DNA of 35,219 bases from Ilumatobacteraceae bacterium (GTDB taxonomy: Bacteria > Actinomycetota > Acidimicrobiia > Acidimicrobiales > Ilumatobacteraceae): NCBI GenBank assembly GCA_009694565.1, contig SHUR01000006.1:1-35219 (forward strand), read 5' to 3'. The position numbers and the translations under genes were made by a program. The notes under the pieces are model-generated. The model ran no database searches. It saw nothing but the letters and a program-made list of their open reading frames with translations, and was not told where the DNA came from. Position 1 is the stretch's first letter. Each line of letters starts with the position of its first letter. Of this stretch, positions 14,108-31,078 are shown one piece after another.

Positions 14108-14437
14108 GTGCCATTGTCAGATGAAGAACAAAGAATCCTGCGCGAGATTGAAGATCAGCTCAAAACTGATGAGAAGTTCGCTAACGCTGTGTCCTCATCA
14201 GGGTTGTATCGCCATTCTGCTCGCCGTGTTTGGTGGGCCCTAGTCGGCGTCATTGTGTCGCTTGTGGCAGTCGTTGCCAGCCTGCAGATTCATTTCTTGG
14301 TTGCATTTGCTGCCTTTGTCGTGATGATGGGCTTTGCTTTGGTCATTGAACGGCAAGTTCGGTTGATTGGGCGCGCGGGGGTACAAGACCTTGCCCAGAC
14401 AATTCGTAAGCCTCGCGTCAAGTTTCCCCACAATTAG
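14108..14437 (+). CDS. DUF3040-family membrane protein
   Basis: 109 aa; MPLSDEEQRILREIEDQLKTDEKFA N-terminus, then two TM segments. Confidence 0.85.
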   Translation: MPLSDEEQRILREIEDQLKTDEKFANAVSSSGLYRHSARRVWWALVGVIVSLVAVVASLQIHFLVAFAAFVVMMGFALVIERQVRLIGRAGVQDLAQTIRKPRVKFPHN

Positions 14438-15271: not shown

Positions 15272-15961
15272 ATGATTACGCCTTCAATGGAGTGGGGCCG
15301 CCATGACTGGACAGGTGCCGCTGCAGAGTTTCATGCAACGGAGTTGCCTGCGGAGCGTGCAATGTGGTGGTGCCACGTTGAGACACCGACTGTGATTCTT
15401 GGATCAACTCAATCAGTTGATGATGTTAATCAGAACATTGCAGAGGAAAGTGGTGTGTTGGTGTCGCGACGGCGCAGTGGTGGGGGAGCAGTATTTGTGC
15501 ACCCTTCAGATTCTGTATGGATTGACATAACAATCAGTCGAGCTGATCCATTGTGGAAAGACGAACTCGCACAGTCAATGCTGTGGCTTGGTGAATGTTT
15601 CGTTGAAGCACTGTCACCGTGGGTGGAGGCTGAGGTGTATCGCAACTCGTTCTCAACAGGGGTTGACGGTCGTGTCGTGTGCTTTGCGAGTTCATCTCCT
15701 GGTGAAGTTTTTGTGGGAGCCAAGAAGCTTGTGGGCATTAGTCAACGACGCGGTCGAGACGGCGCCAGATTTCAATGTGTGTTGTATCGACACTGGCGAC
15801 CAGATGAGTGGTCGGCAATCCTTGCTTCGGCCGAAGTGCGGTCACGGGTTGCAGATATTGCCGTGGCGACCCTCGATGTCCCGGCTCTCACCCTCGTACA
15901 AGCCATCTCTAAACAGCTCGCTGGCATCGGTGGGGAAGATAGTGGAGCGATTTGGGGATAA
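15272..15961 (+). CDS. Lipoate-protein ligase A-like (BPL/LplA family)
   Basis: 229 aa; VILGSTQSVDDVN, VSRRRSGGGAVFVHPSDSVWIDI, GAKKLVGISQRRGRDGARFQCVLY. Confidence 0.83.
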   Translation: MITPSMEWGRHDWTGAAAEFHATELPAERAMWWCHVETPTVILGSTQSVDDVNQNIAEESGVLVSRRRSGGGAVFVHPSDSVWIDITISRADPLWKDELAQSMLWLGECFVEALSPWVEAEVYRNSFSTGVDGRVVCFASSSPGEVFVGAKKLVGISQRRGRDGARFQCVLYRHWRPDEWSAILASAEVRSRVADIAVATLDVPALTLVQAISKQLAGIGGEDSGAIWG

Positions 15962-15994
15962 ATGGTTGACAGTGGGGCATAGTGGGGATACTCT
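15943..15994 (+). promoter_or_regulatory. mraZ promoter with a phased array of MraZ-type boxes
   Basis: TGGAG 15943, TGGGG 15953, TGGTT 15963, TGGGG 15973, TGGGG 15983 (exact 10-bp spacing) overlapping TTGACA (15966-15971), N17, TACTCT (15989-15994). Confidence 0.75.
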
Positions 15995-16039
15995 GTCCCA
16001 CGGGAGAGGCGGAGAACTTCACCCGGGAAGGCAGAGATT

Positions 16040-16456
16040 GTGTTTGTTGGAGTGCATGAGCGACAGCTCGACCCAAAAGGTCGACTCGCGCTCCCTGCTG
16101 CATTTCGTCCCCGTCTCGAACCTCGCTGTTACTTGGCCTTTGGTCGCGATAAATGTATAGACGTTCTTACGGCTGAAGCCTTCGAGCAAGTTGCTGAGGA
16201 CATGCTCCAAAAAGTACGGAGCGGAGAGATGGACCGCAACGAACAGCGAGCACTTGCTGCAAACACGATTGAGGTAACCATTGATGCTCAAGGTCGCGTG
16301 AACCTTGATGAAAAACTTCGCGAGTACGCAGGAGTGCTGTTGGGCTCACGAGTGATTGTCGCTGGTTCCTTTGACCGCGTCGAAATCTGGGAACCAGATC
16401 GTCATGATCGCAACATCAGTTCGGGTACCGAACAAATAGCTGGAGCGGGCGCGTGA
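16040..16456 (+). CDS. mraZ: Transcriptional regulator MraZ
   Basis: 138 aa; GTG start; FVGVHERQLDPKGRLALPAAFRPRL, IDAQGRVNLDEKLREYAGV. Confidence 0.95.
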   Translation: MFVGVHERQLDPKGRLALPAAFRPRLEPRCYLAFGRDKCIDVLTAEAFEQVAEDMLQKVRSGEMDRNEQRALAANTIEVTIDAQGRVNLDEKLREYAGVLLGSRVIVAGSFDRVEIWEPDRHDRNISSGTEQIAGAGA

Positions 16457-16534
16457 TTCTCGATGCTCCACATGTCTTTTCAATCAGTCAGTGGCCGACG
16501 GTCTCTGGCAGTCTCCCGGATGGCACGGTGGTTA

Positions 16535-16612
16535 GCTCCAACTCCGCCCGCTACCATCGCGCACATTCCGGGGATACATCCGGGTGGCAATTGCTTTCCG
16601 GGAGGCTGCCAG
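16535..16612 (+). ncRNA. Candidate cis-regulatory RNA leader of rsmH (possible mraW RNA motif)
   Basis: Stem CCGCCCG (16544-16550) / CGGGTGG (16581-16587, one G-U) around a loop with CCGGGGATACATC. Second hairpin GGCA...TGCC with inner GCTTT/GAGGC (16586-16611). Lies just upstream of the likely rsmH ATG at 16630. Confidence 0.4.
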
Positions 16613-16629
16613 GGACCGTCCGTCATGAC

Positions 16630-17592
16630 ATGGGTACCAACGTGAACGCGGTTTTTGCTCACCTGCCAGTGATGTTGGAACAAATTACCGATGTCTTTTC
16701 CAACATGAACGCCGGTGTTTTTCTTGATGCAACACTCGGTGGCGCTGGACATAGCACGGCAATACTGACGGCGCATCCCCAAGTGTCATTGCTGGGAATC
16801 GATCAAGATGACATGGCTCTTGAATCAGCTGAACAAGTTCTTGCAGCCGCTGGTTGTAGCGGACGCGTTGCCCTCCGACGTGCCCGGTTCGATGCAGCGG
16901 CGCTAATCGTGGCGAAAGAGGGCATCGGCTCGTTGTCCGGTGCCCTCTTCGACCTCGGTGTTTCTTCTCCACAATTCGATGTTGCTGAGCGTGGATTTTC
17001 ATATCGATTCGATGCGCCGCTTGATATGCGCATGGACCGCTCCCAAACTTTGAGTGCAGATGTGATTGTTAACACTTATGACGAAGATGCGTTAACGAGC
17101 ATGTTGCGTCGAAATGCGGACGAGCGTCATGCTTACCGAATTGCAAAGGCGATTATTGCCGCACGTCCGGTCCATTCCACTGCGCGATTGTCAGATGTCG
17201 TGAGTTCAGCAATCCCTGCGCCAGCGCGACGTCGCGGAGGACATCCTGCGAAAAGGACCTTTCAGGCTATTCGTATTGAAGTCAATGCAGAGCTTGAAAT
17301 TCTTCCGGGTGCTTTACGGAACGTCATTTCACTATTGGCTCCGGGCGCTCGATTGGCAGTTCTTTCGTATCACTCTGGCGAAGACCGCATCGTGAAGTCC
17401 GTGATGAGATCAGCAGAGACTGGCGATTGTGATTGCCCACCAAATCTTCCCTGCGGATGCGGTGCTATGCGGTCAGTCGTTCGTGTCCGTGCACCTCGTG
17501 ATGCAAGTAGAGCCGAATTGGCGCTTAACCCCAGGTCTTCTTCGGCACGTTTGCGAGTCGTCGAGAAAATACCTATCGAGAGCCAGAAGTAA
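16630..17592 (+). CDS. rsmH: 16S rRNA (cytosine(1402)-N4)-methyltransferase
   Basis: HLPVMLEQITDVF, LDATLGGAGHSTAIL, FDLGVSSPQFDVAERGFSYRFDAPLDMRMD, LSYHSGEDRIVK. The track start at 16453 (GTG) would add 59 aa over the candidate RNA leader. Confidence 0.93.
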   Translation: MGTNVNAVFAHLPVMLEQITDVFSNMNAGVFLDATLGGAGHSTAILTAHPQVSLLGIDQDDMALESAEQVLAAAGCSGRVALRRARFDAAALIVAKEGIGSLSGALFDLGVSSPQFDVAERGFSYRFDAPLDMRMDRSQTLSADVIVNTYDEDALTSMLRRNADERHAYRIAKAIIAARPVHSTARLSDVVSSAIPAPARRRGGHPAKRTFQAIRIEVNAELEILPGALRNVISLLAPGARLAVLSYHSGEDRIVKSVMRSAETGDCDCPPNLPCGCGAMRSVVRVRAPRDASRAELALNPRSSSARLRVVEKIPIESQK

Positions 17593-17594
17593 TC

Positions 17595-18062
17595 ATGGCT
17601 GTCGCTATCAAATTTCCAACAGTTCTGGCGCCACGTGAGGACCGAGATAATCGGCCCAAGTTGGCGTTGGTTCCTCAGAGCGAGCGACGCTATTTCCGAG
17701 TAATCACCGCGGTGGCTCTCGTCGTAACAGTGATGTTCTGCATCGTGGCGCTTCGTGCACATATGGCTCAACAAGAGATGCATCTAGATAAATTGAACTA
17801 CGACATCACCCGTGCGCGAGCACATTTCGAAACCTTGCGCGCCGAACGTGCAAATCTTCAGTCACCTGGCCAATTGATGAATCAGGCAAGTCTCATGGGT
17901 CTCGTTCCGAGTTTTCCAATTCGCATGGTAGGTATTCCGACAGCTGTTGCCGCTGAAGTAGCAGCAACAGTGGGCAAAGTCGATTCTGACGTCGTGGCTC
18001 GTACTGAATCGCCGCTTGACGAGTTCGGTCGGATGAAAGCAGTCGTGGTCGGATCACCATGA
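17595..18062 (+). CDS. ftsL: FtsL-like septum formation protein
   Basis: 155 aa; short cytoplasmic N-terminus, one TM (VITAVALVVTVMFCIVAL), then coiled-coil segment; position between rsmH and ftsI. Confidence 0.75.
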   Translation: MAVAIKFPTVLAPREDRDNRPKLALVPQSERRYFRVITAVALVVTVMFCIVALRAHMAQQEMHLDKLNYDITRARAHFETLRAERANLQSPGQLMNQASLMGLVPSFPIRMVGIPTAVAAEVAATVGKVDSDVVARTESPLDEFGRMKAVVVGSP

Positions 18063-20137
18063 CTGGGCCAGAAAGTTCACATCGCGGCACGCGTTCACAC
18101 GCAACGCCGTCGTCATCAGGATCAACAACTTCTCGTTCTGCATCATCTCGTTCAAAGTCGTCTCGCGTAACGAGTAATGGCGGTGCTTCGTCTGGTCGTT
18201 CACGTTCGACAAGTCGACCACCGGTAGCAAAGAGGCCAAGTCGGCCCCCAGTTCGCAGTTCGGCAGCAACTCGCGGGCCGGCATCAACTGTGTCACCCTT
18301 TGAATCTCTTATGGCATCTGCATGGCATTGGACCAAGATGAGTTTCACTGGGGAAGTACCAGCGTCATTGCGCTCAAGCAAGATTCCATCATCAGAAGCT
18401 CACCACAGGGTCAAGCATCGTTTACGAATCATGGTGGGACTTTTCATCCTTGCCCTAATCTCGTTGCTTGGTCGAGTGGTGCTTTTGCAAACGGTTCAAC
18501 GGCATTCGTACTTCGAAGCAAGCGTAGATCAGCGCACCAGAGTGAATATTCTGCGTGCAGCTCGCGGGGTCATCTTCGATCGCAACGGTCATGAGCTGGC
18601 ACTGTCTGTCCCAAGTACAACCGTGTATGCGGATCCTCGTGATATCACTGATGTTCCTGCTGTTGCGCACGCATTATCTGTTGCACTGGCGCACACCCCG
18701 GAACAAGAGGCCCGACTGCTCACAACTCTCAGCGCTCCCGGTTCAAAATTCACTTACATCGCGAGAGGCCTGAGTAAAGAAAATGCTCAAACTCTGCTTG
18801 GTCTCGCACTACCTGGTGTGTATTCGTACAAGGAACCGTCTCGACAGGTAGAAGGCGGAGTTGCGGGCGCTGTCATTGGTCGAACAGATCCTGACGGGCT
18901 AGGAACGTCTGGCCTTGAAAAGCAATTTAACAAAATTCTCACAGGGGTTGACGGCAAAGGTATTCGTGAAGTTGATAAGAATGGCCGTTCAATCGCCGGA
19001 GTACAGAGCACCACAGCGGCGCCAGTTGCCGGCGATGACATTGTTTTAACGCTTGACAAGAATATTCAGTTTCAAACTGACACAGCTCTCCTTGACCGTG
19101 TTGGACAACTCAGTGCCAAAGGAGGCACTGCAATTGTGATGAATACAACGACGGGCCAGGTGTATGCGATGTCGAATGTGCGACGGAATACTGCAGGCTC
19201 TGCAGTTCTTGCATCAGGAAACTTTGCAGCTGTTGAGGCGTATGAGCCTGGATCTGTGGCAAAAGTGTTCTCAATCAGCGCTGCATTGAATGAAGGAACC
19301 GTGACTCCAGAAACAGTCTTAAGGGTTCCAGGTGCAATCGTTGTTGACAAATTTCCCATTCGTGATGCATGGCCTCACCCTCCCATGGACATGAATGTGC
19401 GAAGCATTATTAGTGAGAGTTCAAACATTGGAACCCTCATGACAGCGGGAACAATCAGTTCTAATTCCTTGCACGATTATTTGTCTGCATTTGGTTTTGG
19501 TCAGAAAACGGGTCTGGATTATCCAGGTGAAAGTCGGGGAACCTTACGAAACGCGAACAAATGGCGAGGCACGGAAAAGGTAACTGTGTCGTACGGTTAT
19601 GGAATGGCCGCAACCGCACTCCAAATGATCGCAGGTGTGAATACTGTGGCGAACAAGGGAACTTATGTTGCTCCACAGTTAGTGAGTGCCACCATTGATA
19701 AGACGGGGAAACGGCATCCTGTAGCCCCGTCTAATACTCGATCAGTTCTTAAACCTGAGACAGCTGCAGCTATGACCGAGATGTTACGAGAAGTTATCTG
19801 TACAGGAACTGGAGAACTCGCTCAAGTAAAGGGCATGGAAATCGCTGGCAAAACGGGTACTGGCTACAAGGTGCAGGCGAATGGAACATATTCAACAGAT
19901 ACTGGCGGGCGTAAGTATTTTGCATCGTTCGTCGGATATTTTCCAGCTACTAATCCTCAAGTAACGATCTTGATCAGCATTGACGAACCGAACGCGTCAT
20001 CTCGGGACCGTTTCGGTGGTACTGCCGCAGCTACGGTCTTTGCTCGTTTGGTTCCAGGAGTAATGCACGAATTGGGTATCCAGGCAACTGGTTCAGGCAC
20101 TGGTTGTAAGGCGGGCGCTAAGTCTGCTGGACACTGA
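18059..20137 (+). CDS. ftsI: Peptidoglycan transpeptidase FtsI / PBP3
   Basis: 692 aa; PBP dimer domain; SVAK, SSN and KTGTG catalytic motifs; Ser/Arg-rich cytoplasmic N-terminus. Confidence 0.94.
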   Translation: MTGPESSHRGTRSHATPSSSGSTTSRSASSRSKSSRVTSNGGASSGRSRSTSRPPVAKRPSRPPVRSSAATRGPASTVSPFESLMASAWHWTKMSFTGEVPASLRSSKIPSSEAHHRVKHRLRIMVGLFILALISLLGRVVLLQTVQRHSYFEASVDQRTRVNILRAARGVIFDRNGHELALSVPSTTVYADPRDITDVPAVAHALSVALAHTPEQEARLLTTLSAPGSKFTYIARGLSKENAQTLLGLALPGVYSYKEPSRQVEGGVAGAVIGRTDPDGLGTSGLEKQFNKILTGVDGKGIREVDKNGRSIAGVQSTTAAPVAGDDIVLTLDKNIQFQTDTALLDRVGQLSAKGGTAIVMNTTTGQVYAMSNVRRNTAGSAVLASGNFAAVEAYEPGSVAKVFSISAALNEGTVTPETVLRVPGAIVVDKFPIRDAWPHPPMDMNVRSIISESSNIGTLMTAGTISSNSLHDYLSAFGFGQKTGLDYPGESRGTLRNANKWRGTEKVTVSYGYGMAATALQMIAGVNTVANKGTYVAPQLVSATIDKTGKRHPVAPSNTRSVLKPETAAAMTEMLREVICTGTGELAQVKGMEIAGKTGTGYKVQANGTYSTDTGGRKYFASFVGYFPATNPQVTILISIDEPNASSRDRFGGTAAATVFARLVPGVMHELGIQATGSGTGCKAGAKSAGH

Positions 20138-20151
20138 TCGGATCATGAAGC

Positions 20152-21594
20152 ATGTCGCGCCATTCAGTTTCTCCGTTGACTGTCGACAGCCTTGTCATGC
20201 ACGCCGACATTGCTGCCACGATTGTCGGAAGTAAGAACGCTGTATTCTCTGGGATAACTCAGGATTCTCGTAATGTTGAACCGGGTGACATCCTGTGTTG
20301 CGTTCGGGGACAGTTGTTCGACGGCCATCAGTTCATCTCTGAAGGAATCATGCGTGGAGCCGTGGCGGTACTTGTCGACCATATTGATGAATCAATAGCA
20401 TCGTCCGTCGTACAAATCATCGTGCCTGATGTACGCAGAGTTCTTGGTCGCATCGCATCTGCTGCTTTTCGGCACCCTGCATCCTCTTTGAAGATGGTTG
20501 GGATCACCGGAACAAATGGCAAAACAACAACTGCGTCAATTCTTGGGTCGTTGTTGACGGCTCATGGCGGATCTGTGCATGTGATGGGAACATTGACGGG
20601 AGCGCGGACAACCCCTGAGTCAATAGATCTGCACGCCCAATTACGTTCATGCGTGGACTCAGGGGTTGATCATGTAGTCATGGAAGTGTCGTCGCATGCG
20701 TTGGAGCATCACCGCGTAGATGGAATCGCTTTCGATGTGGCTGTCTTCACAAATCTCGGTCATGACCACCTTGACTTTCATGGCACCATGAAAAATTACT
20801 TTGCGGCCAAGAGAAAGTTGTTCACATCTGAACATGCAAGAGCGGCTGTAGTCAATGCAGATGACCCCTATGGGCTCCGCTTGCAAACGGAAGCTGTTGT
20901 TCCAACATCTTCGTATTCTTTATCGAATGTAAGCAATGTGATGGTCGCTGCGTCCCATGTTTCCTTTACCTGGAAGAGTCTTGACGTTCGTCTTCCAATT
21001 GGTGGCTCTTATGCAGTGATGAATGCACTCGCTGCCATTACTGCTGCCAATGAACTTGGTGTTCCTGATGAGCGCATCATCAGTGGATGTGCCTCCGTGC
21101 AGACCGTGCCTGGTCGGTTTGAATCAGTCCCTAATGATGTTGACATCGATGTTGTGGTCGACTTTGCGCATACGCCTGAAGCGTTGCAGGGCCTGTTGAT
21201 TAGTGCGCGAGAAATTGCTCGCGCAGGATTGATAGTGGTTTTTGGATGCGGCGGAGATAGGGACCATGCAAAGCGCCCACTCATGGGGGACATCGCATCT
21301 CGCGGGGCGGACATCGTGATTGTTACCTCTGATAATCCACGTAGCGAAGACCCAGAGCTCATACTGGCCGAAGTCATGTCAGGCGTTGTGGTCAATCATG
21401 CGTTGGTTAGTTCCATCGTGAACAGAGAAAAAGCAATTGAATCCGCCATCTTGGGTGCAAAGCGTGGTGACATGGTGGTTATAGCTGGCAAGGGTCATGA
21501 AACAACTCAGGAAATTAATGGTGTGATGACACCTAGCAGCGATGTAGCGATCGCTGCCGGAGCGCTTCGGATGCGAGAGGAGAAAACGAAATGA
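20152..21594 (+). CDS. murE: UDP-N-acetylmuramoyl-tripeptide synthetase (meso-DAP type)
   Basis: 480 aa; GITGTNGKTTTASI, MEVSSHALEHHRVDGIAFDVAVFTNLGHDHLDFHGTMKNYF, DNPRSEDP. Confidence 0.95.
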   Translation: MSRHSVSPLTVDSLVMHADIAATIVGSKNAVFSGITQDSRNVEPGDILCCVRGQLFDGHQFISEGIMRGAVAVLVDHIDESIASSVVQIIVPDVRRVLGRIASAAFRHPASSLKMVGITGTNGKTTTASILGSLLTAHGGSVHVMGTLTGARTTPESIDLHAQLRSCVDSGVDHVVMEVSSHALEHHRVDGIAFDVAVFTNLGHDHLDFHGTMKNYFAAKRKLFTSEHARAAVVNADDPYGLRLQTEAVVPTSSYSLSNVSNVMVAASHVSFTWKSLDVRLPIGGSYAVMNALAAITAANELGVPDERIISGCASVQTVPGRFESVPNDVDIDVVVDFAHTPEALQGLLISAREIARAGLIVVFGCGGDRDHAKRPLMGDIASRGADIVIVTSDNPRSEDPELILAEVMSGVVVNHALVSSIVNREKAIESAILGAKRGDMVVIAGKGHETTQEINGVMTPSSDVAIAAGALRMREEKTK

Positions 21595-22649
21595 TTGCAG
21601 TTCTTATCGCTGGAGCAGTGGCCATGGTGTTGTCTCTGTTTGGTACGCGCGCGTTGATCTCATTTTTTGATTCGATTGGGAAAGGTCAGCCGATTCTCGG
21701 TTCTGACGACCATGGACCCGTTCATCACATGAAAAAGCAAGGGACAGCCACGATGGGCGGAATTGCCATCATGGTGTCCGCATTCATTGGTTGGGTTGCG
21801 GGACATCTGCGCGGTGGAATAGCTCTCTCTGACCAAGCAATGATTATGTGGGCCATCTGTGGAGTCTTGTCAGTCATCGGTTTCCTTGATGACTTCTTGA
21901 AAGTGCGTCACGCGCATAATCGCGGAATCTTTTGGAAGAAAAAGGGATACATCACCTTCGGACTGGTTGTCGCCATGATGACGTGGCTACTCGTGGGAAC
22001 AGGTGTTAGCGAAACGTTGTCGTTCACTCGCCTGGATTTCCCCGGATGGCAGTTGTCGCCCGTTCTGTGGGTCGTATGGACATCAGTGATGGTGTGGGCA
22101 ACAACAAATGCTGTGAACGTGACGGACGGTCTCGACGGTCTCGCCGCTGGCTCAGCCTTGTTCGGATTTCTAGCCTTCACGGTGATTGCATATTGGGGAT
22201 TTCGAAATCCTGATATTTATCATTTGGTCAACCCTCTTGACTTGGCTGTTTTTTCTGCCGCAATGGCAGGTGCATGCGGTGGGTTTCTGTGGTGGAATGC
22301 TGCGCCAGCGCGAATTTTTATGGGAGACGTTGGAGCGTTAGGAATTGGCGCAGCCTTGGGCTTATTGGCGGTGACCACCAATACGCACATGTTGCTTCCA
22401 CTGATCTGTGCACTCAATGTGATGGAAGCTGGCTCAGTTGCTTTGCAGATGGGTGTATTCAAGGCATCGGGTCGAAAGAAACGATTGTTTCGTATGTCGC
22501 CAATTCATCATCACTTTGAACTTCTCGGGTGGCCAGAAACTACTGTCATTATTCGATTTTGGATCTTGTCTGGAATATGTGTGGCTGTCGCGGTCGGAAT
22601 GTTTATTGCAGACTTCACACACATAGCCGATTCCTTTGCCGGGCGGTGA
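21591..22649 (+). CDS. mraY: Phospho-MurNAc-pentapeptide transferase
   Basis: 352 aa; KKQGTATMGGIAI, GFLDDFLKV, TNAVNVTDGLDGLAAG, SPIHHHFELLGW. Confidence 0.95.
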   Translation: MIAVLIAGAVAMVLSLFGTRALISFFDSIGKGQPILGSDDHGPVHHMKKQGTATMGGIAIMVSAFIGWVAGHLRGGIALSDQAMIMWAICGVLSVIGFLDDFLKVRHAHNRGIFWKKKGYITFGLVVAMMTWLLVGTGVSETLSFTRLDFPGWQLSPVLWVVWTSVMVWATTNAVNVTDGLDGLAAGSALFGFLAFTVIAYWGFRNPDIYHLVNPLDLAVFSAAMAGACGGFLWWNAAPARIFMGDVGALGIGAALGLLAVTTNTHMLLPLICALNVMEAGSVALQMGVFKASGRKKRLFRMSPIHHHFELLGWPETTVIIRFWILSGICVAVAVGMFIADFTHIADSFAGR

Positions 22650-22650
22650 C

Positions 22651-23997
22651 ATGAAACGGGTAGCGGTTTTTGGTCTGGCCCTTGCTGGAGCAGCAGCAGC
22701 GCGTGCCTTGGCGGCGCGAGGCATCGAAGTGGTTCTCTCAGATGATGTGATCATCGACGAACATCGTCATCTCGCGCGTGAGCTTGGCTGCACAATTGTT
22801 CCTGTGGCTACTCAGTCCGATGTTGTTGCTTTTCTTAACGGCGTTGATGTGTTAATTCCTGCACCGGGCGTGGCACCACTTCACCGTGTCGTCGTTGAGG
22901 CACTCGCGCGTGACATATCTGTTCGTACTGAAATTGATATTGCATACGAATGGGAACAGCAGAGAAGTGGTGGACCTCGGCCTATTCTCGGAGTCACGGG
23001 TACAGACGGTAAGACAACAACCACAATGATTACCGCAGCGTTGTTGCGTGGCGGTGGGCGTTCGGTCGGTGAGGTGGGGAACACTGACCTTCCGTTTATG
23101 GCGGCTGTTGACCTACCATTTGATGCTTTTGTTGTGGAGTGTTCAAGTTTTCGATTGCAATTCACAGACGTTTTTCGCTGTGACGCGTCGGTATGGCTCA
23201 ATCTGGCGCCTGACCATCTTGATTGGCACGGTTCAATTGAAAAATACACTGAGGCAAAGCGTCGACTATGGGCATATTCAAGAAATAGCGACGTAGTGAT
23301 CGCTCCTACAGACAATGACGTGATTCTTAAATCAGCCCGTGCAACGCCAGCACGTTGTGTCACCTTTGGACTTGATGCAGGCGACTACATGGTGTCGTCG
23401 GGATCTTTGATGAGTCCGCACGGAGTCATCTGCTCGGTTGATGAATTATGGCGTGCACTTCCGCATGACATTACTAACTCGCTGGCTGCTGCGGCATTGG
23501 TCATCGAATCTGGGTTAAGTGTTGTGGGGGATGTAGCAGCGCCACTACACAATTTTGAATCAGCACATCACCGCATTGAACTCGTCGGCCATTTCGATGG
23601 GTCAGCATGGTACGACGACTCCAAGGCAACGAGTCCTCACGCAGCACTCACCGCTATACGGTCTTTTGAGCACATCGTGTTGATAGCTGGAGGCCGCAAC
23701 AAGGATTTAGATCTGACACAGATGGCTACAGAACCCAAACGAATGGCCGGAGTTGTTGCAATCGGGGATGACGCTGGCGCAATACGACAGGCTTTTGAAG
23801 GAGTGTGCGTCGTGAGTGATGCCACGTCAATGGATGAAGCGGTTGCTCTTGCACACGGCATGGCGAAGAATGGCGCAACGGTTTTATTGTCTCCCGGGTG
23901 TACTAGTTATGACTGGTACAACAATTACAACGAACGTGGTGACGACTTTCAAGACAAGGTACGAAAGTACTTCAACCGAACAGAATCGAGTTCATAA
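22651..23997 (+). CDS. murD: UDP-N-acetylmuramoylalanine-D-glutamate ligase
   Basis: ATG at 22651 follows the mraY stop; GVTGTDGKTTTTMITAAL, ECSSFRLQFT, LAPDHLDWHGS, WYDDSKATSPHAALTAI. Confidence 0.94.
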   Translation: MKRVAVFGLALAGAAAARALAARGIEVVLSDDVIIDEHRHLARELGCTIVPVATQSDVVAFLNGVDVLIPAPGVAPLHRVVVEALARDISVRTEIDIAYEWEQQRSGGPRPILGVTGTDGKTTTTMITAALLRGGGRSVGEVGNTDLPFMAAVDLPFDAFVVECSSFRLQFTDVFRCDASVWLNLAPDHLDWHGSIEKYTEAKRRLWAYSRNSDVVIAPTDNDVILKSARATPARCVTFGLDAGDYMVSSGSLMSPHGVICSVDELWRALPHDITNSLAAAALVIESGLSVVGDVAAPLHNFESAHHRIELVGHFDGSAWYDDSKATSPHAALTAIRSFEHIVLIAGGRNKDLDLTQMATEPKRMAGVVAIGDDAGAIRQAFEGVCVVSDATSMDEAVALAHGMAKNGATVLLSPGCTSYDWYNNYNERGDDFQDKVRKYFNRTESSS

Positions 23998-25193
23998 TGG
24001 CCACAGATAAACGAACTGCCCCAACTCTCAAGGAACGCCGACTTGCAACCCTTCGCCGAACCGGAGTTGCTGATCGTCATCGTGTTGCATTGGAGAAACC
24101 GTCTGCCGCATTCTTCTGGATCCTCATCATTGTCATTTCGTTTGTCATGTTGGGTCTGGTCATGGTGTTGTCGTCATCTTCAGTAACAAACTTGCACTCT
24201 GGTGGGTCAGCGTGGGAAATGCTTCAACGCCAATTGATTTGGGCAGCCTTGGGAGCATTTGCGATGTGGGCGGCGTACGAGCTGCCGTACGAAACTTGGC
24301 GTAATCCTCGACTACTAATGCCGGTAGTTCTAACAGTGGCGGGTTTGAACGCCGCAGTGATTTTGAAGGGCGCTTGGTTGAATGGTGCACGCGCATGGCT
24401 AGACATTGGTCCGTTCCGAATGCAGCCTTCTGAATTCATGAAAATCGCTGTGGTTCTTTTCTGCGCAAACTTGCTGTCGCATCGACATCGTTCGGTTCAG
24501 ATCACGAGCATTGTGTTGTGGCCCATGATTGCAGCATTGACAGTCAGTGCAGGATTGTGCGCCTTTCAAAAGGATTTCGGTGGAAGTTTGATTTTTGGTG
24601 GCGTCGTGCTTGCCATGATGTTTATCGCTGGGCTTCCACTGCGACAGTTAGCTGCAACTACAGTAAGTGTTGCGATTCTCGGAGTTTTCGTACTTAAGTT
24701 TGCAAGCAACGCCAGTGCGCGAATGCTTGCCTTTATGCATCTTGATGCCACAAAAGAAGACAGTGGATATCAGGTGTATCAGTCACTATTGAGCATTGCG
24801 AACGGCGGCTGGTCGGGTACTGGAATCGGATCTGGCACTAGTAAATGGGGTTACGTGCCCCTTGCTTACAGCGATTTTATTTTCTCAGTCATCGCAGAAG
24901 AGCTGGGGATTTTTGGTTCATTGATGGTCATTGGCGGATTTTTAGCATTGGTCATCTTCGGCTTGCAGGTTGCACTGTCAGCGCCAGATACCCACGGCGC
25001 ATTTATTGCAGGAGGTATATCTGCATGGTTCGGCGTTCAGGCATTAGTCAATGTCGGCGGAGTAGTGGGCGCACTGCCGATGACAGGATTAACTCTTCCT
25101 TTCTTGTCGTACGGCGGCTCTTCTCTGATCGCTTCGATGGCAGCGGCAGGATTATTGTTGAACGTGGCTCGAGATGTAAAGACTTCGCATTAA
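23997..25193 (+). CDS. ftsW: SEDS glycosyltransferase FtsW
   Basis: 398 aa polytopic protein; GARAWLDIGPFRMQPSEFMKIAVV, FIFSVIAEELG, GLTLPFLSYGGSSLI. Confidence 0.93.
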   Translation: MATDKRTAPTLKERRLATLRRTGVADRHRVALEKPSAAFFWILIIVISFVMLGLVMVLSSSSVTNLHSGGSAWEMLQRQLIWAALGAFAMWAAYELPYETWRNPRLLMPVVLTVAGLNAAVILKGAWLNGARAWLDIGPFRMQPSEFMKIAVVLFCANLLSHRHRSVQITSIVLWPMIAALTVSAGLCAFQKDFGGSLIFGGVVLAMMFIAGLPLRQLAATTVSVAILGVFVLKFASNASARMLAFMHLDATKEDSGYQVYQSLLSIANGGWSGTGIGSGTSKWGYVPLAYSDFIFSVIAEELGIFGSLMVIGGFLALVIFGLQVALSAPDTHGAFIAGGISAWFGVQALVNVGGVVGALPMTGLTLPFLSYGGSSLIASMAAAGLLLNVARDVKTSH

Positions 25194-25195
25194 CC

Positions 25196-26326
25196 GTGGT
25201 GTACGCAGTCGTAACCGGTGGCGGAACAAGTGGCCATGTCATTCCGGCGATAGCAATTTGTGAGTTACTCGTTGAAGCTGGTCATCCAGTGTCCGATATT
25301 CGCTACGTGGGTTCTCGGCGGGGCGTTGAGCAAGAGTTGATGCGATCGTTTGAAGTTGCTGCTGAATATCTTCCAATCTCTGGATTACAGCGTTCGTGGA
25401 CCATTCGGGGCATGGCACGAAATGTTTTGCTCCCGTGGCGCTTATTACGAAGCCGGATTCTTGCTCGTGGGCTCCTTAAATTGTGGAGCCCCGGCGTTGT
25501 GGTCTCGGTTGGTGGATATGCGAGCGAACCAATGTCGCGGGCAGCTCTTGCAGCACATGTGCCATTGGTATGTGTGAGTTACGACAGGATTCCTGGTTTG
25601 GCGACTCGTCGTCAAGCTAAACGAGCCACAATTTCTGCAGTTGCGTTTGAGGGTAGCTCTCTTCCTCGCTCGGTATTGACGGGTGCGCCAGTTCGTGAAC
25701 AATTACGCGGATTAGATGTCTCTGCTTCCCGCGCACTGTCGCGTTCCATGCTCGGTATTTCTCTGGACGCACGCATGGTAGTTGTAATGGGTGGGTCTTT
25801 AGGTTCTGGTGTGTTGAATTCGATGGTTGCTGATCTGTTACTTGAAATGGCAGGAACTCAATCGGTTGTTTACCACATATGCGGTCAGCGCTTTGCACGT
25901 GATTCCATGCCGCACATACCCGCGGGGGTGCAATATGTGCGCGTTGGCTACGAAGACCGAATGGCAGATGTCTACAGCGCACTCGATGTCTTAGTTTCAC
26001 GAGCAGGCGCAAGTTCAGTAGCTGAAATCGCCACAGTTGGTGTTGCTGCAGTTTTGATTCCGTGGCCTGATGCAGCAGATGGGCACCAAGAACTCAATGC
26101 CAGATGGTTGACAGATGCCGGAGCAGGAATTCTCATGGATGATGCGGCGTGTGTTGACGGGCGGGCGGTGGCTCAGGTCACTCAATTGTTGGCAGATAGT
26201 GATCGTGTGTCAATAATGGCCCGCACTGCTTATCAATTAGGTGCCATACATCGAAGCACAGCATTAGTTAAAGCAATCGAGGGGGCCGCTCACGCGACCG
26301 TCGCGCGTGGAACAATGGACGACTAA
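25196..26326 (+). CDS. murG: UDP-GlcNAc:lipid I GlcNAc transferase
   Basis: GTG start at 25196; TGGGTSGHVIPAIAI, VVSVGGYASEP, VVVMGGSLGSGVLN, SRAGASSVAEIATVGVAAVLIPWPDAADGHQELNA. The track start at 24845 lies within ftsW. Confidence 0.92.
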   Translation: MVYAVVTGGGTSGHVIPAIAICELLVEAGHPVSDIRYVGSRRGVEQELMRSFEVAAEYLPISGLQRSWTIRGMARNVLLPWRLLRSRILARGLLKLWSPGVVVSVGGYASEPMSRAALAAHVPLVCVSYDRIPGLATRRQAKRATISAVAFEGSSLPRSVLTGAPVREQLRGLDVSASRALSRSMLGISLDARMVVVMGGSLGSGVLNSMVADLLLEMAGTQSVVYHICGQRFARDSMPHIPAGVQYVRVGYEDRMADVYSALDVLVSRAGASSVAEIATVGVAAVLIPWPDAADGHQELNARWLTDAGAGILMDDAACVDGRAVAQVTQLLADSDRVSIMARTAYQLGAIHRSTALVKAIEGAAHATVARGTMDD

Positions 26327-27732
26327 TGAACGTCTCTCGTCGAACCGCTGAACCGCTCATTGGGCTCAATGTGCCTATTCGATGTCACGTCGTTGGCATT
26401 GGGGGTCCTGGCATGAGCGCAATCGCTCGCTTGTTGATTGAAATGGGTCATGAGGTGACAGGCTCAGACCTGCACGAATCAGCGGCCATTGATGATCTTC
26501 GTCAGCGCGGCGCAGAAATTTCTATTGGCCATCACGAGGCAGCCGTCCACGGTGCTGATGTCGTTACATACTCGACGGCAATTCCTTCTGCCAATGTTGA
26601 ATTGGTAGAGGCGCTGCACGGTGGAATACCAACTCTTCATAGGTCTGGAATATTGGCATCGTTATGCGCTGTCACAAATGCTGTTGGCATTGCCGGTACC
26701 CATGGAAAGACAACTACTACAGCGCTCGTCACTGCGATGACTACGGCTGGTGGTCTGCATCCCTCGTCGATAATCGGTGCGGATGTTCTCGGCGGTAATG
26801 AGACTGTCCACGGGGACGGTTCACTTCTCATAATTGAGGCAGATGAAAGTGATGGGACTCTTGATGTTCTTCCATTGACATCTCTCGTGGTGACCAATAT
26901 TGATATTGATCATCTTGACTATTTTGTAACGTTCGAAGCTATTAAGGAATGTTTCGCTGATGCAATCGAGCGTGCTCGCGGAGTTGTAGTGCTGAATGCA
27001 GATGATGCAGGGTCCGCTGATCTTGTGAGGGCACTTGGTCGAGATATTCGTGTGACAACTTTCGGACGGTCAGAGAATGCAACGGTCCGCATTATGTCAG
27101 TTGAGCAAAACAGTGGAGGCACATTGGTTGAAGTATGTGTCGCCGACCAGACGTACGGGTGTGCATTAAATTCACGCGGTGAACATAATGTTTTGAATTT
27201 TGCTGCTGCTCTTGCGGTGGCAATTCGTCTTGGTGTCGACCCGTCTGTCGCGTGTACGGCAGCTGCGGCTTTTCGTGGCGTCGCCCGTCGGTTCACCGAA
27301 CGTGGTGATTTCCGTGGATCGTTATTAATTGACGACTATGCGCATTTGCCTGCCGAGATTTCCACCACAATTGATGCAGTGCGTTCACACCCAGCATTGA
27401 CGGGTCGTGTGATTGCAGTGTTTCAACCGAATCGATACCACCGCATCGCCACGATGGCTGATTCGTATGCCGATTGTTTTGTGCAGGCAGATCGAATTGT
27501 GATTACTGACGTATATGCATCAGGTACTCAGAAGATAGACGGAGTCACAGGAGAGTTGGTGGTCGATGCCATTCGTCGTGCACATCTAAAAGCTGATGTG
27601 GTGTGGGCGCCGTCGCGCACTGACACGGTGGCTGCCGTTGAGTCATGGATCTCCCCTGGCGACATCTGCATCTCGATGGGTTGTGGCGATATTGAATCAT
27701 TTCCTGATGATTTGCGAGGAGTGGCGAAATGA
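26326..27732 (+). CDS. murC: UDP-N-acetylmuramate-L-alanine ligase
   Basis: 468 aa; HVVGIGGPGMSAIARLLIEMGHEVTGSD, GIAGTHGKTTTTALV, DESDGTL, VAVFQPNRYHR-like IAVFQPNRYHR. Confidence 0.95.
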   Translation: MNVSRRTAEPLIGLNVPIRCHVVGIGGPGMSAIARLLIEMGHEVTGSDLHESAAIDDLRQRGAEISIGHHEAAVHGADVVTYSTAIPSANVELVEALHGGIPTLHRSGILASLCAVTNAVGIAGTHGKTTTTALVTAMTTAGGLHPSSIIGADVLGGNETVHGDGSLLIIEADESDGTLDVLPLTSLVVTNIDIDHLDYFVTFEAIKECFADAIERARGVVVLNADDAGSADLVRALGRDIRVTTFGRSENATVRIMSVEQNSGGTLVEVCVADQTYGCALNSRGEHNVLNFAAALAVAIRLGVDPSVACTAAAAFRGVARRFTERGDFRGSLLIDDYAHLPAEISTTIDAVRSHPALTGRVIAVFQPNRYHRIATMADSYADCFVQADRIVITDVYASGTQKIDGVTGELVVDAIRRAHLKADVVWAPSRTDTVAAVESWISPGDICISMGCGDIESFPDDLRGVAK

Positions 27733-28745
27733 CCACAGGTGCGCTCATTGCTGAGATGGCTGCAGTTGGTCTTGATGTTCATGGTGATAGGGCCCTTGCC
27801 CCACTCACCACGTATGGAGTCGGCGGTAACGGCGCATGTGTTGTCAAGGTGTCGTCGTCAGAACAAGTAATCGCAGTTTCTGAGGTCTTGCGTCGTCATC
27901 CAGGAGTAGAAACTCTGGTGATGGGTCGCGGGAGCAATATTCTTATTGCAGACCAAGGTTTCGATGGCGTTGTCGTTGTAATGTCGCCGTCAAGTGGCGA
28001 AAATGCAGTCACCGTTGACGGTGACATTGTGGAAGCTGGTGGTGCAATGTTGATGCCAGTGTTGGCCCGTCGATCTGTCGGTGCTGGGCGTGGTGGTCTT
28101 GAATGGTGTGTCGGAATTCCTGGCACTGTTGGTGGCGCAGTCCGAATGAACGCGGGCGGTCATGGAGCCGATATGGCTTCTTCTGTGGTTGATGCCACAG
28201 TGTTATCTCTTGGTAGTGGACAACTCATGCGTGTGTCCGCAGAACAACTCGGTTTCTATTTTCGCGGTTCGGCATTGTCAAGCAATCATGTAGTGCTGAC
28301 GGTTCGAATGAGAACTGCAGTTCAAGAGGCAGCCAGCGGTACAGCCGAAATAAACGCAGTTGTCGGATGGCGGCGCGAGCATCAACCAGGCGGCCGCAAC
28401 GCCGGCTCGGTATTTGTCAATCCTGGTGCAGGTGATGAGAGTGCTGGTGCTCTGATTGATGCATCGGGGCTTCGTGGTTTCACAATTGGTGCGGTGAGTG
28501 TTTCAGAAAAGCATGCAAATTTTATTCAAGCGGGAGAAGGGTCGACTGCAGCTGATATTGCTGCGGTGATGGCACATGTGCAAAGTACTGTAGATCGCGT
28601 TCATGGCATTCGTATCTACAGCGAGGTGTGTCTAGTCGGATTCTCTGCAGACCTTATGACTCGTTTCTCCCATCCCTCTCACTCTTCTGCGCGGCACGTT
28701 GCAGCCAAAGAGCACTTGCAAAGTCTCCTTGGAGACAACGTATGA
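27729..28745 (+). CDS. murB: UDP-N-acetylenolpyruvoylglucosamine reductase
   Basis: 338 aa; LMGRGSNILIADQGFDGVVV, WCVGIPGTVGGAVRMNAGGHG, NAGSVFVNP. Confidence 0.94.
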   Translation: MTTGALIAEMAAVGLDVHGDRALAPLTTYGVGGNGACVVKVSSSEQVIAVSEVLRRHPGVETLVMGRGSNILIADQGFDGVVVVMSPSSGENAVTVDGDIVEAGGAMLMPVLARRSVGAGRGGLEWCVGIPGTVGGAVRMNAGGHGADMASSVVDATVLSLGSGQLMRVSAEQLGFYFRGSALSSNHVVLTVRMRTAVQEAASGTAEINAVVGWRREHQPGGRNAGSVFVNPGAGDESAGALIDASGLRGFTIGAVSVSEKHANFIQAGEGSTAADIAAVMAHVQSTVDRVHGIRIYSEVCLVGFSADLMTRFSHPSHSSARHVAAKEHLQSLLGDNV

Positions 28746-29875
28746 CAGATTCAGATAACACAAGTTCCAAAGATCGGCTAGAGGAAATCTCTGTCACCGA
28801 AGTGTCTGATCAAGTCCTACAAGAGTTGTCGGGTCTCTTTGGCAGTCGCGAATCCGAGATGGTGGTGGAACCAGATGGGATCATCGAACCAAGCGGGGCC
28901 TCTGTGACGGACATTGTTGGCTCTGCCAACGCTGTGCCTGAGAACGACACACCACGTAACTTTGATTTGCCAGATGCAGAGAACATAGTCATTATCGACC
29001 CAAGTGTTGAGGAGATTCTTCGGTTAGAACTAATTGATCCGTTACTCAATGGAATGGCTGAAGACACTGGCACTTTGGTGGTAATCGATGACGACCTAGA
29101 CCGAGTTGTCATTGTTGATGACGACAGGCCAGACCCAACCTTCGAAGAGAGACAACGACGTTCGCGACGACGTGAACGCTTGCAAAAGGTCAAGTGGTTG
29201 AAACTTGCTGGTGCGATTGCCGCATCTGTAGTTGTGGTGATTGCAGTTCTGGCCTCACCAATTTTTGCTATCCGGTCAGTGACCGTAGAAGGAAATGTCT
29301 ACACGTCCAAAGAGGTTCTTGTATCGGTGACAAAAACGTTGAAGGGTGCGTCAGTATTCACCGTGGATACCCACCGGGCACGCGAGTTGTTGCTCGCAGA
29401 TTCGTGGGTGTCTGACGTGCGGATCACCACCCGTTTCCCGGGCAAGGCACTTGTAGAAATCGCAGAAAGAGTGCCCATCGTTTGGTACGTCGGAGATGAT
29501 CAGAAGGCGCGCATCGTGGACGCACGAGGTCACGTCATCGCAGTACTTGCTGGTTGGCCGACAAAGTACCTGCGTGTAGCGGGTGTCGGTCCATCACTTG
29601 AGGCAGGCGCTGTGGCCGACGATGTCTACAGGGCTGCGGCGCAACTTGTGTTGGCATTGCCTGACGAACTTCGACCATTGGTGAAATCACTTGAGGTCAG
29701 TGGGGGTGGGGAGCTCGCAATGACTCTTGCAGGCGGGACCCTCGTTCGTTTCGGGCCACCCAATGACTTGCAGAGCAAATTGGTCGCAGTCGTTGTGCTC
29801 TTACGGCGTCAGAATCCATCGACCTTGGCAGTTATTGACGTTTCAACGGGTGAACCGACCGTCCAGGTCCGCTAA
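28742..29875 (+). CDS. ftsQ: Cell division protein FtsQ (POTRA domain) with long acidic N-terminus
   Basis: ATGA overlap with murB at 28742; one TM, then IRSVTVEGNVYTSKEVLVSVTKTLKGASVFTVDTHRARELLLADSWVSDVRITTRFPGKALVEIAER. Confidence 0.9.
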   Translation: MTDSDNTSSKDRLEEISVTEVSDQVLQELSGLFGSRESEMVVEPDGIIEPSGASVTDIVGSANAVPENDTPRNFDLPDAENIVIIDPSVEEILRLELIDPLLNGMAEDTGTLVVIDDDLDRVVIVDDDRPDPTFEERQRRSRRRERLQKVKWLKLAGAIAASVVVVIAVLASPIFAIRSVTVEGNVYTSKEVLVSVTKTLKGASVFTVDTHRARELLLADSWVSDVRITTRFPGKALVEIAERVPIVWYVGDDQKARIVDARGHVIAVLAGWPTKYLRVAGVGPSLEAGAVADDVYRAAAQLVLALPDELRPLVKSLEVSGGGELAMTLAGGTLVRFGPPNDLQSKLVAVVVLLRRQNPSTLAVIDVSTGEPTVQVR

Positions 29876-29938
29876 ACGATTGCCCGAAACGGGGATTGCC
29901 ACATATATCGCTCGTGATGTGGGAAACTTAAGAAACTC

Positions 29939-29963
29939 AGTCCTTACGGACTCCTTACTGGAG
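29939..29963 (+). promoter_or_regulatory. Candidate RNA hairpins upstream of ftsZ
   Basis: AGTCC-TTAC-GGACT (29939-29952) overlaps CTCC-TTACT-GGAG (29951-29963); the second pairs with the ftsZ Shine-Dalgarno GGAGG. Confidence 0.3.
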
Positions 29964-29974
29964 GTAAATGGTCG

Positions 29975-31078
29975 ATGGCCGGTGCACCACAGAATTATCT
30001 CGCCGTTATAAAGGTGATTGGTATTGGCGGAGGTGGCGTTAACGCTGTCAATCGCATGATCGATGCTGGTCTTCGAGGTGTTGAATTTGTCGCAATTAAC
30101 ACAGACGCGCAAGCCCTTCTTATGAGCGATGCTGATGTCAAACTTGATATCGGCCGCGACCTCACTCGTGGTCTTGGCGCAGGCTCCGATCCTGACGTTG
30201 GTCGCGCAGCAGCCGAAACGCATCGTGAGGAAATTGAAGAACTCATTAACGGTTCGGACATGGTTTTCATTACCGCAGGTGAAGGTGGGGGTACCGGAAC
30301 AGGTGCTGCTCCAGTTATCGCGGAAATTGCGAAGTCTCTCGGCGCTCTCACTATCGGTGTTGTAACTCGTCCGTTCCAATTCGAAGGTCGTCGTCGTGCT
30401 GTTCAGGCAGATAACGGAATTCAGCGTCTAAAGGAAAAAGTTGACACTTTGATTATTATTCCGAATGATCGACTTCTCACCGTTGCGAATGACAAAACAT
30501 CACTGGTCAATGCCTTCAAGATGGCAGATGAGATTTTATTGCAAGGTGTAGCAGGTATTACAAACCTCATTACGACTCCTGGCCTCATCAACACGGACTT
30601 CGCAGACGTCAAGATGATTCTCACTAGCGCAGGCTCTGCTCTGATGGGAATTGGTATCGCCAGTGGAGACAATCGTGCAGTTGTTGCAGCAAAAGATGCG
30701 ATTTCGAGCCCAATGCTCGAGGCAGCTATTGATGGTGCACGCGGCATTTTGCTTAATATCACTGGTCCATCCAGCATGGGTCTTTTCGAAGTGAACGCTG
30801 CAGCCGAAGTGGTTCACGGTGTTGCACATCAAGATGCAAACATTATTTTCGGAACTGTTATCGACGATGAAATGGGTGATGAAATTAAGGTCACTGTTAT
30901 TGCGGCAGGTTTCGAACGTTGGGATGCAGGTTCAAGTGGGTCATCCATTGGTACTCGCACATCTACTCGTCCAGCTGATGCGCGACCTTCCACGAGCAAC
31001 GTGCGTGACATTTTCTCTGACAGCGATCCGTTGTCAGACGATGACGATGATTTCGACGTTCCATCTTTCTTGAAATAG
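29975..31078 (+). CDS. ftsZ: Cell division protein FtsZ
   Basis: 367 aa; [42 protein letters not shown]-terminal peptide [11 protein letters not shown]. Confidence 0.97.

Follow-up and report, generated by a model that had tools for sequence, protein, structure and literature searches.

The window considered here is a stretch of 35,219 nucleotides from a bacterium of the family Ilumatobacteraceae (GCA_009694565.1, contig SHUR01000006.1); all genes and sites described below lie on its forward (+) strand. It contains an mraZ gene (16040..16456) that starts with GTG and encodes a protein of 138 aa. The protein matches the MraZ domain PF02381 in two stretches (E=2.2e-17, 63.2 bits, cut-off 23), in agreement with the MraZ domain repeat. 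With the NCBIfam model of the MraZ repressor, TIGR00242, it scores 74.9 bits (E=5.9e-21), which is under the cut-off of 98.35, and thus as an ortholog of MraZ it is above the Pfam cut-off and below the NCBIfam one. It also resembles the solved MraZ chains 1n0e, 9qlr, 9sx6 and 9qlg from PDB (E 1e-9 to 4e-8). There is one DxxGR motif in each half of the protein, DPKGR at residues 11-15 and DAQGR at residues 82-86; the counterparts in MraZ of E. coli are DSKGR and DGAGR.

The mraZ gene is the first gene of a dcw cluster. By Pfam and NCBIfam scans, it is followed on the same strand (16453..31078) by rsmH/mraW as the next gene, and then by ftsL-like, ftsI, murE, mraY, murD, ftsW, murG, murC, murB, ftsQ and ftsZ. 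This is the gene order characteristic of mraZ, and the dcw operon named in the initial annotation does follow on the same strand. Since the genes abut or overlap, we infer that they are co-transcribed, and they are presumed to form the regulated operon. Upstream of mraZ lies an LplA-like ORF of the lipoate/biotin ligase family (15272..15961, PF21948, E=4.7e-13), whose stop codon TAA occupies 15959-15961. A gene for a possible DUF3040 / SCO2097-family "morphological" protein (14108-14437, NCBIfam score under the cut-off) precedes the dcw promoter by roughly 1.5 kb.

The region immediately upstream of mraZ contains an array of five boxes at exact 10-bp steps (15943-15987, that is, 53-97 nt upstream of mraZ) superimposed on a candidate promoter. 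Counting from the first T of the -35 hexamer TTGACA (15966..15971), the boxes are box 1, TGGAG, at -23 (15943..15947); box 2, TGGGG, at -13 (15953..15957); box 3, TGGTT, at -3 (15963..15967); box 4, TGGGG, at +7 (15973..15977); and box 5, TGGGG, at +17 (15983..15987). Boxes 1 and 2 fall within the last codons of the LplA-like ORF. The TGG of box 3 abuts the -35 hexamer, and the final two bases of this box are the first two bases of TTGACA. Boxes 4 and 5 lie wholly inside the 17-nt spacer (15972-15988), and box 5 ends one nucleotide before the -10 hexamer TACTCT (15989..15994). Three of the five boxes match TGGGN exactly, whereas TGGAG and TGGTT match TGG only. Direct repeats of the TGGGN type with 5-nt spacers and a 10-bp period at the mraZ promoter are what is expected of an MraZ operator.

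The initial annotation had given the same five TGG starts (15943, 15953, 15963, 15973 and 15983) over TTGACA-N17-TACTCT, with two perfect boxes in the spacer and two boxes in the lplA-like gene, and all these assignments are confirmed. It had also described the promoter as near-consensus. This holds for the -35 hexamer (6/6), but not for the -10 hexamer, which has only 3/6 matches to TATAAT; hence a scanner for consensus promoters did not report the mraZ promoter, and the weak -10 hexamer is a point against the reading proposed below. The list of boxes, correct as regards the five, omitted one further TGGGG (15931..15935), although the interval given for the operator included it.

The array is well beyond chance expectation. 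The five-box pattern with at most one mismatch has two overlapping matches in the window, both at the array, compared to a mean of 0.01 per shuffled window. Across the 1.42 Mb of the draft genome, the only perfect match to five boxes is at the mraZ promoter, and the four-box pattern has two overlapping matches at the array and one unrelated match.

We collected the upstream regions of mraZ from the family, the order, the phylum, and E. coli. Of 88 non-redundant promoters from the family, 73% have at least three perfect TGG in 10-bp phase, so that the array is conserved upstream of mraZ in relatives, the point on which the initial annotation had made its reading depend. The share was 41% for the order (29 promoters) and 73% for the phylum (30 promoters), both samples being the best-scoring MraZ loci, with further loci added later. 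In dinucleotide shuffles three or more phased TGG appear in 0.2-0.6% of cases (0.6% in the family test). No other period (6-9 and 11-15 bp) produced anything comparable in the mraZ promoters.

The family promoters could be aligned on TTGAC in 68 of 88 cases. In this alignment TGG is found at -23 in 69%, at -13 in 78%, at -3 in 81%, at +7 in 69% (NGG in 93%), and at +17 in 72% (NGG in 87%), compared to a TGG background near 3-6%; this sharpness of the register is somewhat inflated, because the location of the boxes guided the choice among copies of TTGAC, and a promoter entered the alignment only if at least two of the scored positions held a box. The array test on 88 promoters is independent of this alignment step. 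On average, 3.69 of the five core positions per family promoter are occupied by TGG, whereas sliding the positions by 1-9 bp yields at most 0.24. An xAxxxT hexamer occurs 16-18 nt from the -35 hexamer in 65 of 68 promoters. Thus, besides being conserved upstream of mraZ in relatives, the boxes have a set position with respect to the promoter, again as expected of an MraZ operator.

The remaining 20 of 88 family promoters have no TTGAC or fit poorly to the -23...+17 register. TTGAC is absent upstream of mraZ in the family members L112-L115, L122-L124, L128, L150, L151, L157, L160 and L169. In the genomes of two of these, L151 and L157, a five-box TGG array was observed near mraZ in a different setting (L192, L193), hinting at a further rearrangement of the promoter. 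Four records of metagenome-assembled genomes entitled "Bifidobacterium breve" (L033, L035, L038, L056) encode MraZ proteins 72-98% identical to that of the window. In three of them (L033, L035, L038) the identity is 97-98%. The records have a matching mraZ promoter, and their titles look mislabelled.

The additional TGGGG (15931..15935) precedes box 1 by 12 bp, which corresponds to position -35 when counted, as before, from the first T of the hexamer TTGACA. Judged by its conservation, it belongs to the array. Indeed, among 47 non-redundant family promoters with the -23 box, TGG at the 12-bp step is present in 13, where the local background would give about 1.4, whereas the 10-bp step occurs in 5 and the 11-bp step in 3. 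Among the 19 promoters most similar to that of the window, 68% have TGG at this position. Several relatives have further boxes at about 10 bp above the 12-bp step box. The alternative is that the upstream box is the degenerate GGGAA at 15933, which is in phase with the other five. The 12-bp step would partly restore the helical phase, since over five steps of 10 bp the boxes move out of phase with a helix of 10.5 bp per turn.

The mraZ promoters of the order and phylum have the same 10-bp phased TGG arrays as the window, but mostly in a different register. Modulo 10, class 7 is dominant in 52 of 63 family promoters with a dominant register, whereas class 8 is dominant in 22 of 33 order promoters. 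The dominant register of the order and phylum is +8/(+18)/+28/+38 and continues through the -10 hexamer, while the array of the window extends from -23 to +17. In the order promoters TGG is present at +8 in 59%, at +28 in 77%, and at +38 in 74%, and +18 mostly has GG only. A smaller share of the promoters in the order and phylum also uses register 7, and thus the shift is recurrent rather than unique to the family.

The comparison yields a simple rule for how a 10-bp array of boxes may share bases with the promoter hexamers. Judged by base sharing alone, boxes in register 7 could flank TTGACA (TGG directly followed by TTGACA) and would have to stop before the -10 hexamer, since at +27 a box and this hexamer would be incompatible. 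In register 8 the final T of the -10 hexamer could double as the first base of a box (TAnnnT directly followed by GG) and the array could continue downstream, but no box could directly precede TTGACA. What supports two registers is how often each of them, 7 and 8, is occupied. The zero counts found for -2 and +27 are largely a consequence of how promoters were selected and illustrate the logic, being no evidence for it. The comparison also shows that lineages have moved the array along the promoter. The lineage-specific novelty is the register over the -35 hexamer and spacer, the length of the array, and the 12-bp upstream step, while the general system is known.

The region upstream of mraZ in E. 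coli K-12 contains TGGGA-TGGGG-TGGGA with the same 10-bp step, again as TGG(G) boxes phased at the promoter of the first dcw gene. Hence the initial annotation was right that E. coli has three repeats and that the array here is longer. However, the E. coli boxes, as read from the sequence, are at +38/+48/+58 from the -35 hexamer, in register 8 modulo 10 as in the order but wholly downstream of the -10 hexamer. This arrangement of three downstream boxes was not found in the array of the window, which has five boxes from -23 to +17 over the -35 hexamer and spacer, plus the box at -35 after the 12-bp step. The type of switch is therefore known, and the form in the window is longer and situated further upstream than in E. 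coli.

MraZ of E. coli is reported to be an autorepressor of dcw (Eraso et al. 2014, described in PMC8475190). The operator in Mollicutes is given as direct repeats AAAGTG[T/G] (Fisunov et al. 2016, cited in PMC8475190). The family consensus AAAGTGGGG, which consists of the box core and an A-rich upstream flank, contains AAAGTGG; on the other hand, the genomes of Mollicutes are AT-rich and their dcw cluster is shorter. According to PMC8475190, in M. genitalium MraZ represses the dcw cluster and its loss raises dcw expression; the mraZ promoter is described as the only MraZ site (Fisunov et al. 2016, cited there). MraZ is among the most widespread bacterial regulators, yet studies cover only a small number of its operators.

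Taken together, the adjacency of mraZ, the retention of arrays with period 10 in the family, order, phylum and E. coli, and the sharp register make it very probable that the array is the operator by which MraZ autorepresses the dcw operon; the binding itself is predicted from sequence. An MraZ ring would set successive DNA-binding units on successive boxes along one face of DNA. Occupation of boxes 3-5 would keep sigma and RNA polymerase off the -35 hexamer and the spacer, and with initiation blocked, MraZ would repress its own gene together with the division and cell-wall genes behind it. We infer repression by occlusion from this geometry and from published accounts in which MraZ represses the cluster that it heads (PMC8475190). 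The boxes further upstream (-13, -23, -35), beyond the -35 hexamer, probably add binding strength or cooperativity, which would make repression steeper.

A bipartite, graded operator is conceivable but rather unlikely. In such an operator, initiation would be blocked by one ring seated on the -35/spacer core, and the upstream block, set apart by the 12-bp step as a correction of the helical phase, would be occupied by another ring or by the same ring in a different state. If this operator exists, dcw expression would respond to the level of MraZ steeply or in two steps, and the switch between registers 7 and 8 would be an evolutionary change from blocking of the -10 and start region to blocking of the -35 region.

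One rival possibility is that MraZ activates the promoter, or does both, the upstream boxes recruiting or stabilising polymerase at low MraZ and the spacer boxes repressing at high MraZ. Indeed, the boxes at -13, -23 and -35 are upstream of the -35 hexamer, where activators bind, and in Mycoplasma gallisepticum overexpression of MraZ was reportedly accompanied by an increase in FtsZ (cited in PMC8475190), so that the sign of regulation is not universal. However, two perfect boxes are inside the spacer, the conserved core covers the -35 hexamer in the family promoters, and the accounts of M. genitalium and E. coli in PMC8475190 are of repression; thus we consider activation improbable. The involvement of another regulator is considerably less probable still. 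One candidate is MtrA, for which binding to 100 bp of the mraZ upstream region is reported in Dietzia (PMC9602371), but 10-bp arrays of TGG like that of the window are found ahead of mraZ in E. coli and throughout the phylum, and the box matches the MraZ repeat reported in Mollicutes (PMC8475190).

It is just as improbable that the G-rich repeats are conserved as a G-quadruplex controlling mraZ, as proposed for the mraZ promoter of Staphylococcus aureus (PMC11796246), where the upstream motif reportedly forms such a structure and influences a reporter. The canonical quadruplex pattern is present in 26 of 88 family promoters, but not in the window, where no pattern of four G-tracts was found with loops of up to 12 nt allowed, and in none of 50 phylum-level promoters, although these retain the 10-bp phase of TGG. 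Moreover, folding requires neither T before the Gs nor the exact 10-bp phase, and the relaxed match in E. coli (L067) falls on the three MraZ boxes. Conversely, the reported conserved quadruplex motif may in part consist of MraZ boxes. Least credible is an array due to chance or to the coding constraint on the last part of the LplA-like gene. The final codons of this ORF do run through the boxes at -35, -23 and -13. However, the alignment of relatives contradicts this: in more distant relatives that have a ligase-sized upstream frame (for example, L040-L046, L062, L063), this frame stops 83-152 nt before TTGACA, and still the boxes persist in non-coding DNA; the 10-bp phase is not a multiple of a codon, and the chance expectation is the 0.01 given above.

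The most likely target of this MraZ array is mraZ and the dcw operon behind it, as no second promoter with the array/-35 architecture was seen in the genomes searched for strong patterns, a search that leaves room for weaker or shorter sites. In 61 family genomes the strict five-box pattern outside mraZ falls almost always on simple tandem repeats, and the reversed control of this pattern is about equally frequent. The pattern TGGTTGAC-N3-GG-N7-TGG retrieved mraZ promoters and a handful of other sites, no more than the reversed control. A wider regulon built on such strong patterns was rejected on these grounds.

A structured leader RNA of a known family was considered and rejected, as there is no Rfam match in the window. 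Between the promoter and mraZ, different relatives have differing short hairpins (L048, L054, L059), and the hairpins of the mraZ leaders fold only slightly better than shuffled sequences, with the exception of L059 (z -3.2).

Finally, in the window and seven close relatives (L033-L039) the LplA-like ORF crosses the upstream boxes and stops at -7 from TTGACA. Reading through the boxes produces protein tails such as GGEESGEIWG. The probable operator DNA has thus become coding in this ORF, presumably after a loss of intergenic DNA.
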